Part shown: positions 15,769 through 19,484 of the stretch, one piece after another
How the letters are laid out: each line of letters begins with the position of its first letter
Numbering within the stretch: position 1 is the stretch's first letter
Program-made: the position numbers and the translations under genes
Assembly: GCA_004297165.1 (NCBI GenBank)
Contig: SCUJ01000006.1
Coordinates: forward strand, 868,001 to 932,000
Direction of reading: 5' to 3'
From: Gammaproteobacteria bacterium
Lineage (GTDB): Bacteria > Pseudomonadota > Gammaproteobacteria > Eutrophobiales > Eutrophobiaceae
DNA length: 64,000 bases
Notes under the pieces: generated by a model
What the model was told of the DNA's origin: nothing
The model's database searches: none
What the model saw: only the letters and a program-made list of their open reading frames with translations

Positions 15769-17058
15769 ATGAGACAAATCAACTGCCTCGCCATTGTGGT
15801 GTTTTCCGTTTGCCTCTCTTTCAGTTTCCAGGCCAGGGCGGAGACCTGGAGAAAACTGGAAAACTCGCATTTCAGGATGTACTCAACAGCGAGGGAGAAG
15901 GTTTCGCGGGAATTATTCATGGAGCTGGAAGGATTTCGCGCCCTGGTCGTCAATTTCATCAAGGTCGAGATCCCTCCCGCTGCGGAAAAGGTCGAAGTCA
16001 TCGTCTTCAACAACCAGGCGAATTTCAAGAAATATACCTGGCGCGATGACATCGCCGGATACGTCTTGCCGACCGAGAACAGTGCGATCATCGTGGTGCC
16101 GGCATGGGTCTGGGGGATGGACGCCACGAACATCATCTACCACGAGTTCGTGCATACGTTGTTACGCCATCATAAGGCGAAACTGCCAGGCTGGTATCAG
16201 GAAGGAATAGCCGAGGTGTTCGGCGCGACTAAATTCCTAGACGGTCATTTTAACGTCGGCGCCGCGCCCAAGGATCGATTCGAGGCAATGTCTTATGGAG
16301 GGCAACTGGCCTCTTTCAATGACATTGTGTCCGACAAGTTTCAGACTCATCGCTCAAAATTCAATCAGGATCCCTATCTCCAATACTGGATGCTGGCGCA
16401 CTATCTTGAATTCGGCAGCAAGAAACGCAAACAGGATCTCGATTTGTATCTGACTTTATACAACGATGGAGCGGATTCCCTGGAGGCGTTTCAGTTGGTG
16501 TTCGGGCAAACGCCGGAAGAATTCTGGCAGACGGAATTGAAAAAATACATGAATCAGCGGCGCATCCCGGGATTGCGTGTGGATGTCGCTCCGGAGATGT
16601 CCGACAGCGCAATTTCCATGAGCGAGGCGGATCTGGGTGAGGTGGAACGCACGATGGTTCCACTCAATATCGTATCCGCCTCCGGCGCCATCCAGAGGAA
16701 AAATTATGAACGCGGCTATAACCTGCTGAAAAAACTGGCCGATAACGCCAATCCCGAAGATGAGGGGTATATCGTGATCATAAATAATCTCGTCTGGTTC
16801 TTGTCTACCTGTCCCAAGGACAAATACCGGAATGGCGCAGAGGCAGTAAGACTGGGCGAGCTATATATCAAGGACAAAACGGAGAATATCGGCTATCTCG
16901 ATACCCTGGCTTCGGCATATGCGGAGGCAGGTCTTTTTGAAAAGGCAGTCGAACTCCAGGCCAGCCTGGTCGAAAAACTCGATTCGAACGACTCCAATCG
17001 CGAGGAATTTTTAAAACGGCTGGGTAAGTACCGGAATAACGAACCCTGGCGAGAATAG
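15769..17058 (+). CDS. Secreted gluzincin-type metallopeptidase-like protein with C-terminal repeats
   Basis: The 429-residue protein has a Sec signal ending QARA-ETW. The zinc motif HEFVH lies at residues 125-129, followed by LPGWYQEGIAE in which Glu145 is the likely third ligand. This matches the peptidase MA-like/DUF1570 group. The C-terminal 130 residues (NYERGYNLLKKLADNA, NIGYLDTLASAYAEAG) look like TPR helices. AAGGAGATATCGTC precedes the ATG. It probably acts in the periplasm; the substrate is unknown. It stands alone and converges on the PQQ dehydrogenase, with the CRISPR-like repeats just after its stop. Confidence 0.8.
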   Translation: MRQINCLAIVVFSVCLSFSFQARAETWRKLENSHFRMYSTAREKVSRELFMELEGFRALVVNFIKVEIPPAAEKVEVIVFNNQANFKKYTWRDDIAGYVLPTENSAIIVVPAWVWGMDATNIIYHEFVHTLLRHHKAKLPGWYQEGIAEVFGATKFLDGHFNVGAAPKDRFEAMSYGGQLASFNDIVSDKFQTHRSKFNQDPYLQYWMLAHYLEFGSKKRKQDLDLYLTLYNDGADSLEAFQLVFGQTPEEFWQTELKKYMNQRRIPGLRVDVAPEMSDSAISMSEADLGEVERTMVPLNIVSASGAIQRKNYERGYNLLKKLADNANPEDEGYIVIINNLVWFLSTCPKDKYRNGAEAVRLGELYIKDKTENIGYLDTLASAYAEAGLFEKAVELQASLVEKLDSNDSNREEFLKRLGKYRNNEPWRE

Positions 17059-17063
17059 AAGCC

Positions 17064-17152
17064 CCTCCCCCCGCGCGCGCGGGGAGCAGCCGGGGTGGCT
17101 GTGATGGTGCTGGATGAATCGGGTCCTCCCCCCGCGCGCGCGGGGAGCAGCC
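17064..17152. CRISPR. Minimal type I-E-like CRISPR remnant: two repeats, one spacer
   Basis: Two identical 28-base copies start at 17064 and 17125, a period of 61. They begin CCTCCCCCCGCGCGC and end GCGGGGAGCAGCC. The copies enclose a 33-base unique segment at 17092-17124. A 28-29 base palindromic repeat with TCCCC...GGGGA arms and a 61-base period is typical of type I-E arrays. No cas gene is present in the window. It could be a remnant or a solo array served in trans; two copies alone could also be a duplicated hairpin. Confidence 0.6.
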
Positions 17153-17234
17153 CGTAGGGTGGGCATGTCTTCCATGCCCACGCGGGATCGGTGGCAATGT
17201 CCACGTGGGCGCCAATAACGTGCCCACCCTACGG
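17152..17234. repeat. Palindromic GTAGGGTGGGCA repeat element
   Basis: CCGTAGGGTGGGCA at 17152-17165 is the exact reverse complement of 17221-17234. An inner hairpin starts GTGGGCA and closes TGCCCAC. It fills the space between two convergent genes and abuts the second CRISPR-like repeat. The same core recurs at 57892-57914 and 57976-57998, so this is a dispersed REP-like family. It may also terminate transcription from both sides. Confidence 0.8.
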
Positions 17235-17237
17235 CTC

Positions 17238-19433
17238 TTACTGTTCCTTATGCGGCTGCTCCACTTCCTCTTCCTCAGCCGGCGGTGGACTTGCGGCGGG
17301 CTGCTCCGCCCGTTTGAGATCGTTGGCGCGCGCGATGAGGTAGGAACGGATGGCCACTGTGTCCTCAGCCTTCAGCCCATCGGCGAATGAACCCATGCCG
17401 CGCTCGATTAGGGCACCCTGCAATACGACCGTATCGAACGCCGCCTGATCATGCAGCATCGGCGTACGGGTAAGGTTTGGCGAGGCCGTGCCGCGGGTCT
17501 GGCCTTCCTCACCGTGACAAACGGAGCAGTTCTGCGAATACAGCGCCGCACCCGCGGTCACAACCTCGGCCGCGGCGGTGGCCGGCGGCGGATCGAGCGG
17601 CCTGGGCGTATACGGCGCTGCCGGCGGCAGCTCCGTCTTTCCGCCGAGACCGAAGACCAGCAGCCGCGAATAGTTTGGGGCGTAGTAGTCGTTGGCGCTG
17701 CCGCCGACGCTCACGGCGACATACTGCTGGCCGTCGAGTTCGTAAGTAATGGGCGCTGCCAACACTGAAGTCCGCGCGTCCATGCTCCACAGCTTCGCGC
17801 CAGTGCGTGCGTCATAGGCGCGAAACTCACCCGCGCTGCCGCCGCCCTGGAAGACCAGACCGCCGGCGGTGGCCAGCGCGGCGCCGGTGGTGCGATCCAC
17901 GGATTCACCGCGCCAGACCTCCTTGCCTTCAACAGGATCCCAGGCCTGGAGGTAACTCACGAAGCCGCTCGGTTCATCGGGATGCTCGCGATAATAGTCG
18001 GCGGAGGTCCCGAAGTTGACGCCCAGGTTGAAGCCGACGGTGCTGGGCTTGAACTCGGGATCGTGGGTCATCGGCATGTAGGCATGCTGGGTCGGGATAT
18101 ACATCAGTTCCGTATCCGGGCTGTAGGCATTGGAATGCCAGCCGTGCGCGCCCTGCACGCCCGGCAGCAGGTTGAAGGGCTTGTCATCGTATCTCGCTTC
18201 CGGCCTGACCCGCGGGCGCCCGGTCTCCATGTCCACGCCATCGGCCCAGTTCACCTCGGTAAAGGGCTTCGCCATGAGCAGCTCGCCGGTGCGGGCGTCG
18301 AGCATATAAAAGAATCCGTTCTTGCAGGGTTGCAGGATCACGCGGCGCTCCTGGCCATTGACGGTCAGGGTCACCGCCATCATCGGGCTGACCGCATCGT
18401 AATCCCAGGTATCGGCCGGGGAGGTCTGGTAATGCCAGACGTATTCACCGGTATCGGGCTTCAGGGCGAGGATGGAGGCGAGGAACAGATTATCGCCGCC
18501 GCTGGGGTCGCGGTGTTTCTGGTTCCACGGCGTGCCATTGCCGGTGCCGGTGTAGATCAGATCGGTCTCCGGATCGTAAATGGTGGAATCCCACACCGTG
18601 CCGCCGCCGCCGAGTTTCCACCAATCGCCGCTCCAGGTCTTGGCCGCCATCTCCATCTGCGGATTCTCAAAACCATCCGCCGGATTGCCGGGCACGGTGT
18701 AGAAGCGCCAGATCTGTTTGCCGGTCTCGGCATCGAAGGCGCTGATGAAGCCGCGTACGCCGAACTCGCTGCCGGAGGCCCCGACGAAGACCTTGCCCTT
18801 CGCCACCCTGGGCGCACTGGTGATGGAGTAACGATGTATCGGCGAGCCGGCCTTGTCTGCGTCATAAACCAGGGTGGACCAGATCTCCTTGCCGGTTGCG
18901 GCGTCTATGGCGATCAGCTTCGCGTCGAAGGTGCCGACGTAGATCTTGCCGTTCCAGGCGGCGATGCCGCGGTTGACCAGGCCGCAGCAGACCTGACGGG
19001 CCGCCTCGCGGGGCGTCTTCGGATTGTAGCGCCAGAGCTCCTTGCCCGTTTTCGCGTCGAAGGCATAGACAACGCTCCAGGGCGTGGCCGCATAGATCAC
19101 GCCATCGATGTAGAGCGGCGTGCCGTATTGCGACTGGTTCGAGTCGAAATCGGCGTACCACATCAGACCGAGATCCTTGACGTTGCCGGTATCGATCTGC
19201 GTCAAACGGCTGTAGCGCTGCTCGTCGTGGGTGCCTCCATAGGACAGCCACTGGGAGGGTTCAGCCGCGGCATTCAGCAGGCGCTCGGCCGTCACATTCG
19301 CCGCTTTCACCGCGGCGGTAGCGGTCTGGTCAGGCGCGGCTGGCGCGGGCGCCGCCGGTTCCTGGGCGCGTTCACAACCCGTCAATGTCAGCGCCAGTGA
19401 GGCGATTAAAACCAGGAGCCGTATCTGAAACAT
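17238..19433 (-). CDS. PQQ-dependent alcohol dehydrogenase, quinohaemoprotein lipoprotein
   Basis: The 731-residue protein is a close paralogue of the one at 1286. The lipobox is LTLTGC. The propeller carries VCCGLVNRG, SEFGVRG, GTGNGTPWN and TWDYD (about Asp344 and Asp346), and the C-terminal haem is CSVCH at about 636-640. The start was placed at MFQIRLL, where GGGGGGAACAACG precedes; an ATG five codons upstream lies inside that sequence. It is followed upstream on the same strand by the flavocytochrome genes, so both enzymes may act on one pathway. The C-terminal tail is Pro/Glu-rich. Confidence 0.92.
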   Translation of the reverse strand: MFQIRLLVLIASLALTLTGCERAQEPAAPAPAAPDQTATAAVKAANVTAERLLNAAAEPSQWLSYGGTHDEQRYSRLTQIDTGNVKDLGLMWYADFDSNQSQYGTPLYIDGVIYAATPWSVVYAFDAKTGKELWRYNPKTPREAARQVCCGLVNRGIAAWNGKIYVGTFDAKLIAIDAATGKEIWSTLVYDADKAGSPIHRYSITSAPRVAKGKVFVGASGSEFGVRGFISAFDAETGKQIWRFYTVPGNPADGFENPQMEMAAKTWSGDWWKLGGGGTVWDSTIYDPETDLIYTGTGNGTPWNQKHRDPSGGDNLFLASILALKPDTGEYVWHYQTSPADTWDYDAVSPMMAVTLTVNGQERRVILQPCKNGFFYMLDARTGELLMAKPFTEVNWADGVDMETGRPRVRPEARYDDKPFNLLPGVQGAHGWHSNAYSPDTELMYIPTQHAYMPMTHDPEFKPSTVGFNLGVNFGTSADYYREHPDEPSGFVSYLQAWDPVEGKEVWRGESVDRTTGAALATAGGLVFQGGGSAGEFRAYDARTGAKLWSMDARTSVLAAPITYELDGQQYVAVSVGGSANDYYAPNYSRLLVFGLGGKTELPPAAPYTPRPLDPPPATAAAEVVTAGAALYSQNCSVCHGEEGQTRGTASPNLTRTPMLHDQAAFDTVVLQGALIERGMGSFADGLKAEDTVAIRSYLIARANDLKRAEQPAASPPPAEEEEVEQPHKEQ

Positions 19434-19484
19434 CGTTGTTCCCCCCATTGCTGCTTGTTTTGTTATGAATTCTGTTAAGAAAAA

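Follow-up and report, generated by a model that had tools for sequence, protein, structure and literature searches.

Type I-E CRISPR repeats are laid out as a CCCCG..CGGGG stem with arms of 5 and 7 nt (5 + 16 + 7). During insertion in these systems, Cas1-Cas2 places a 33-nt piece of DNA at both ends of the 28-bp repeat, and the repeat is duplicated by gap filling. In its passages on orphan arrays, a review takes such arrays to suggest that CRISPR systems degenerate, and states that viral mini-arrays mostly have the same repeat as a full host system (PMC8616872). Furthermore, overexpression of Cas1-Cas2 has been reported to cause integration outside arrays (Nivala 2018, as cited in a passage of PMC11788318). 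Here we describe a single repeat-spacer-repeat unit from the genome of a gammaproteobacterium (3,526,527 bases, 13 contigs, 98.95% complete), found in a stretch of 64,000 nucleotides (the window) on a contig of 1.78 Mb. The unit is probably an orphan CRISPR mini-array of type I-E form, built by a type I-E Cas1-Cas2 whose machinery is now undetected.

Geometry and surroundings of the unit

The unit sits at the junction of two convergent genes (Table 1). Its repeat copies are identical at 28 of 28 positions, start 61 nt apart and enclose a spacer of 33 nt; the coordinates thus confirm the two identical 28-base repeats, the 61-base period and the 33-base spacer given in a preliminary description of this DNA. 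The copies diverge immediately outside the 28 nt (C at 17063 versus T at 17124; G at 17092 versus C at 17153). A repeat of 28-29 nt and a period of ~61 nt characterize a type I-E array, and the unit shows both. The G at the start of the spacer is presumably the 29th, PAM-derived base of the repeat, followed by 32 nt, as in type I-E. Because the 33 nt downstream of copy 2 share 10 of 33 positions with the spacer, a 61-bp tandem duplication is ruled out.

Table 1. Features at the junction (window positions) and the type II CRISPR locus of the same genome.
Feature	Position	Strand	Description
Left flanking gene	15769..17058	+	429 aa, assigned to no Pfam family; 5 nt between its stop codon and repeat 1
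CRISPR-type repeat, copy 1	17064..17091	+	28 nt = 5 nt + 16-nt palindrome CCCCGCGCGCGCGGGG + 7 nt
Spacer	17092..17124	+	33 nt, first base G
CRISPR-type repeat, copy 2	17125..17152	+	same 28 nt as copy 1
Dispersed palindromic (REP-like) element	17153..17233		starts exactly where repeat 2 ends (17152)
Right flanking gene	17238..19448	-	736 aa, PQQ-dependent dehydrogenase with cytochrome c domain
Type II CRISPR locus, own genome	L038:8866-13748, about 1.03 Mb on its contig		1162-aa Cas9, Cas1, two 38-nt repeats and one spacer

When up to 3 mismatches were allowed, the 23-nt core of the repeat was found at two places in the window, compared to 0.01 expected, and none of 100 shuffles reached two. 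These are also its only two places in the whole genome, in agreement with the solo state claimed earlier. In the window, the unit is the sole exact pair of at least 18 nt at a spacing of 45-90 nt, and again the sole one if pairs of at least 20 nt up to 120 nt apart are considered. A 400-kb sample of the same genome contained five such exact pairs, all in one 20-kb stretch (L060) and none in the other 19; the longest of them measure 32 and 28 nt, have an 84-nt period and are partly simple tandem runs. The single stem CCCCGC-N4-GCGGGG occurred once in this sample, and pairs of type I-E-like stems did not occur there (0 in 400 kb).

Neither promoters nor terminators were called at the repeats, an IHF-consensus motif is absent from positions 16851-17350, and Rfam gave no match at the gathering score in the window or in loci L009, L010, L011 and L038. 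Two open frames of the minus strand (16868-17227 and 16893-17204) cross the repeats and encode SPRARG/PARAGG-like peptides, which we take to be the kind that type I-E arrays yield when translated; both frames were judged spurious.

The palindromic REP element that the preliminary description had placed beside the repeat, between convergent genes, is indeed there and has dispersed copies. Its sequence has the form CGTAGGGTGGGCA ... TGCCCACCCTACG. At least 25 matches were obtained in the own genome with a 221-nt query and at least 35 with a 701-nt query, the site of the unit included; both counts are lower bounds (40 places scored out of 62 and 63 candidates, respectively), and some places were counted on both strands. 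Among the matches listed, the element family has about 30 further places in this genome, and partial copies appear among those listed for a genome of the same genus. Away from the site of the unit, the matches are confined to the element portion of the query, apart from a few that start or end some bases outside it. We judge the element to be independent of the CRISPR unit. The repeat was also considered as a dispersed repeat or a piece of the REP-like element, and this was rejected because its two genomic copies both lie at the site of the unit and it is absent from the inspected stretches of 15 further loci that carry the element.

Repeat type, similar arrays and the spacer

In a public genome collection, exact matches to the 23-nt core were found in three stretches, all three inside arrays of ~61-nt period, which supports the type I-E form proposed beforehand. 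They belong to Actinoplanes solisilvae (L009), Streptomyces sp. A0958 (L011) and a Clostridiales MAG (L010), and the stretches retrieved contain 35, 12 and 39 stems, respectively, compared to two in the unit. Like the unit, these arrays have a 28-nt repeat and an identical core around the stem, whereas their outer repeat bases differ from those of the unit; they are known by repeat form alone. The core is identical to the repeats of I-E-form arrays over 21-23 nt. The repeat thus has the CCCCG..CGGGG stem flanked by arms of 5 and 7 nt, and its agreement with the compared arrays comprises the stem and AGCAG on one side, with a poor match in the other arm. On the plus strand the 28 identical nt have the 5 + 16 + 7 layout, but the sequence of the arm agrees better on the minus strand (CTGCT, then the stem), and the array may therefore run in either direction.

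In a distant plasmid search, 84 records matched the 97-nt unit (73 from Streptomyces), and in 68 of the 84 one place covered at least 80% of the query. Some of the weaker matches lie inside ordinary genes (e.g., LysR, ParA, tssL), and therefore not all 84 records are arrays. In the two records whose annotation was examined, the array adjoins annotated type I-E genes: cas3/casA/casB/cas7e on the Streptomyces anulatus plasmid NZ_CP109523.1, and cas2e/cas1e/cas6e/cas5e on the Paracoccus aestuarii plasmid NZ_CP067170.1. The repeat core was found in no stretch of IMG/VR, and a search of phages with the unit returned two records, both with short matches within the spacer.

For the spacer, 30 bases had no exact match in IMG/VR. 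One of two 20-nt spacer pieces matched a single viral contig (L043), which was rejected as the protospacer because the agreement does not continue beyond these 20 nt: over the whole spacer, 24 of 33 positions agree, as many as in a stretch of the own genome (L055). This comparison across loci excluded eight loci covering the site of the unit itself. The comparison with phage and plasmid sequences, proposed in the preliminary description as a check, yielded nothing better than partial matches (best E 0.03 and 0.3). No other place of the spacer in the own genome was among the matches listed for the 221-nt query (40 of 62 candidate places scored). In IMG/VR, phages and plasmids, no match beyond chance speaks for an origin of the spacer from a mobile element, and these searches yielded no convincing source.

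Cas genes in the genome and in relatives

A Pfam scan of seven neighbouring proteins of the window matched no cas family, and neither Cse1 nor Cas7e was detected in the own genome (each of these searches detected its family in 2 of 14 control genomes), so the statement that there are no cas genes here held up. The cognate type I-E cas genes searched for genome-wide (Cse1 and Cas7e) were thus not found. The one Cas1 of the genome overlaps the end of the Cas9 gene and is followed after 0.4 kb by two copies of a 38-nt repeat, spaced at 67 nt; adjoining Cas9 and these repeats, it is therefore part of a type II system with another geometry, which we take to be II-C-like. Like the unit, the type II locus has an array of just two repeats, but its repeat is different, its period is 67 nt and it adjoins Cas9 and Cas1. 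With 38-nt repeats at 67-nt spacing at that locus, an origin of the unit from the resident Cas1 is disfavoured. The search for a type I-E cas operon with the same repeat elsewhere in the genome, also suggested beforehand, turned up a CRISPR system, though one with Cas9 and a different repeat. When six cas proteins from loci L046 and L051 were looked for in the window, in L038 and L072 and in a 400-kb sample of the own genome, each matched its source locus alone, in a comparison whose sensitivity was little gauged.

The Cse1 search covered 53 family genomes (the order-level set consists of the same 53) and found no match in any of them; the Cas7e and Cas1 searches covered the own genome. With up to 3 mismatches, the repeat core was found in 0 of 52 other family genomes, and the 28-mer in 1 of 369 genomes of a class sample drawn from a larger group, this one being the own genome (0 of 368 others). 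The same unit at many loci devoid of cas genes, which would have marked it as an ordinary dispersed repeat, was thus found neither in the own genome nor in the 52 family and 368 class genomes. Furthermore, no empty (single-copy) site was present among these 52 and 368 genomes, and no longer array with the repeat of the unit among the relatives searched. The comparison of the locus in relatives produced one genome of the same genus with a different junction, in which another open frame of the same strand follows the dehydrogenase gene, and no single-copy site. The left flanking gene has a distant match in the same-genus genome (25% identity).

Of 53 family genomes, two contain a generic pattern of two type I-E-like stems ~61 nt apart; the reversed control pattern gave 0 hits. 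Besides the site of the unit, it marks an array of I-E form in family member G015 (GTGTTCCCCGCAGACGCGGGGATGAACCG; L072:850-1183, on a 4.9-kb contig), which has six repeats, counted by eye, a different sequence and degenerate end repeats; no Cse1 match was found in this genome. The first bases of the 4.9-kb contig resemble what we assume to be the end of a type I-C repeat.

Possible histories and comparison with known systems

A type I-E origin of the unit is likely, because the length, period and stem sequence of the repeats, their sharp boundaries and their uniqueness in the genome fit it jointly. Several observations stand against an orphan type I-E mini-array: there are two repeats and one spacer only, no convincing source of the spacer was found, the outer bases match poorly and the better-matching minus direction conflicts with the 5 + 16 + 7 layout, no IHF-consensus motif lies nearby, and the core is absent from IMG/VR, while in phages short spacer matches alone were obtained. 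If the unit arose as in type I-E systems, Cas1-Cas2 would have joined a 33-nt piece to both ends of a single 28-bp repeat, whose duplication by gap filling would have given repeat-spacer-repeat; the product would then have outlived local type I-E machinery or never had it. If transcribed, the unit would give a hairpin RNA, and no searched-for Cascade subunit that could use it was found. As no searched-for type I-E effector gene and no Cas1 outside the Cas9 locus were detected, the unit is most likely inert today. In fact, with the searched-for type I-E genes not found, it is most likely either an inactive relic or a misplaced insertion.

Between these two, we place a relic of a longer array slightly ahead of an ectopic insertion at a repeat-like hairpin. 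For the relic, which we favour tentatively, a longer or imported type I-E array would have lost its cas genes, leader and other units by deletion. The identity of the core to I-E-form array repeats over 21-23 nt agrees with such a loss, as do the reading of orphan arrays as a sign of CRISPR-system degeneration in the cited part of the review (PMC8616872) and the six-repeat I-E-form array of G015, with its degenerate end repeats and no Cse1 match. However, no cas family was seen in the seven scanned neighbours, no further repeat copy exists within 3 mismatches, and the unit fits tightly between the stop codon (5 nt) and the dispersed element (0 nt).

This tight fit at a convergent junction is easier to reconcile with an ectopic integration (neo-CRISPR), in which a transient type I-E Cas1-Cas2 would have acted on a pre-existing GC-rich hairpin at the junction, a history that we hold to be conceivable and somewhat less probable. 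In its favour, exactly 28 nt are duplicated and the 33-nt insert begins with G; a single CCCCGC-N4-GCGGGG stem was found in 400 kb, and candidate target sites therefore exist; and off-array integration under Cas1-Cas2 overexpression is reported (Nivala 2018, as cited in the passage of PMC11788318 mentioned above). Against it, the 52 other family genomes contain no empty site (core with up to 3 mismatches), there is no present-day Cas1 besides that of the Cas9 locus, and the likeness to I-E-form repeats extends past the stem. The more specific case of a natural neo-CRISPR, i.e. a one-spacer fossil of a single type I-E Cas1-Cas2 insertion into the junction hairpin in a family without detected Cse1, appears a little less probable still. 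Of the preliminary description, the type I-E form, the solo state and the lack of detected type I-E cas genes hold up; the relic, ectopic integration and off-target integration site that it offered were not separable, with no empty site found, a different junction in the same-genus genome and no convincing source of the spacer.

We regard it as improbable that the unit is no CRISPR at all and that two GC-rich palindromic hairpins (terminator-like or REP-like) came to lie 61 nt apart by chance at the convergent 3' ends. This reading is in keeping with the core, which forms a perfect 16-nt palindrome and lies between convergent genes, with the good folding of the minus-strand RNA of the unit (z -4.0, compared to z -1.96 for the plus strand), and with the exact close repeats of another kind, 28-32 nt long, in stretch L060 of the genome. 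However, no terminator was called at the repeats, the repeat has no other genomic copy and is missing at the 15 other element-bearing loci (inspected stretches), the 28/61 geometry and the sequence match I-E-form arrays, and 400 kb of the own genome contained no pair of I-E-like stems. An assembly collapse of a longer array to two repeats is highly improbable in a genome of just 13 contigs and on a contig of 1.78 Mb, even though the array of the Cas9 locus in this genome has two repeats as well.

Most likely, the unit thus belongs to a known class of features, the orphan CRISPR mini-arrays, and is nothing new in kind. Orphan arrays are a record of past contact with CRISPR systems since lost. 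As a relic the unit would be routine; as an ectopic insertion it would be a natural example of the reaction that the cited passage reports under Cas1-Cas2 overexpression (PMC11788318). In contrast to the viral mini-arrays described in the review as sharing the repeat of a host system (PMC8616872), the unit has a repeat that is found nowhere else in its own genome. The plasmid loci of S. anulatus and P. aestuarii share the repeat geometry and the stem type with the unit (DNA similarity), but differ from it by their adjoining type I-E cas genes and long arrays. The unit resembles the orphan CRISPR mini-arrays described for chromosomes and viruses, which also consist of one spacer between two repeats, with no cognate cas genes found.
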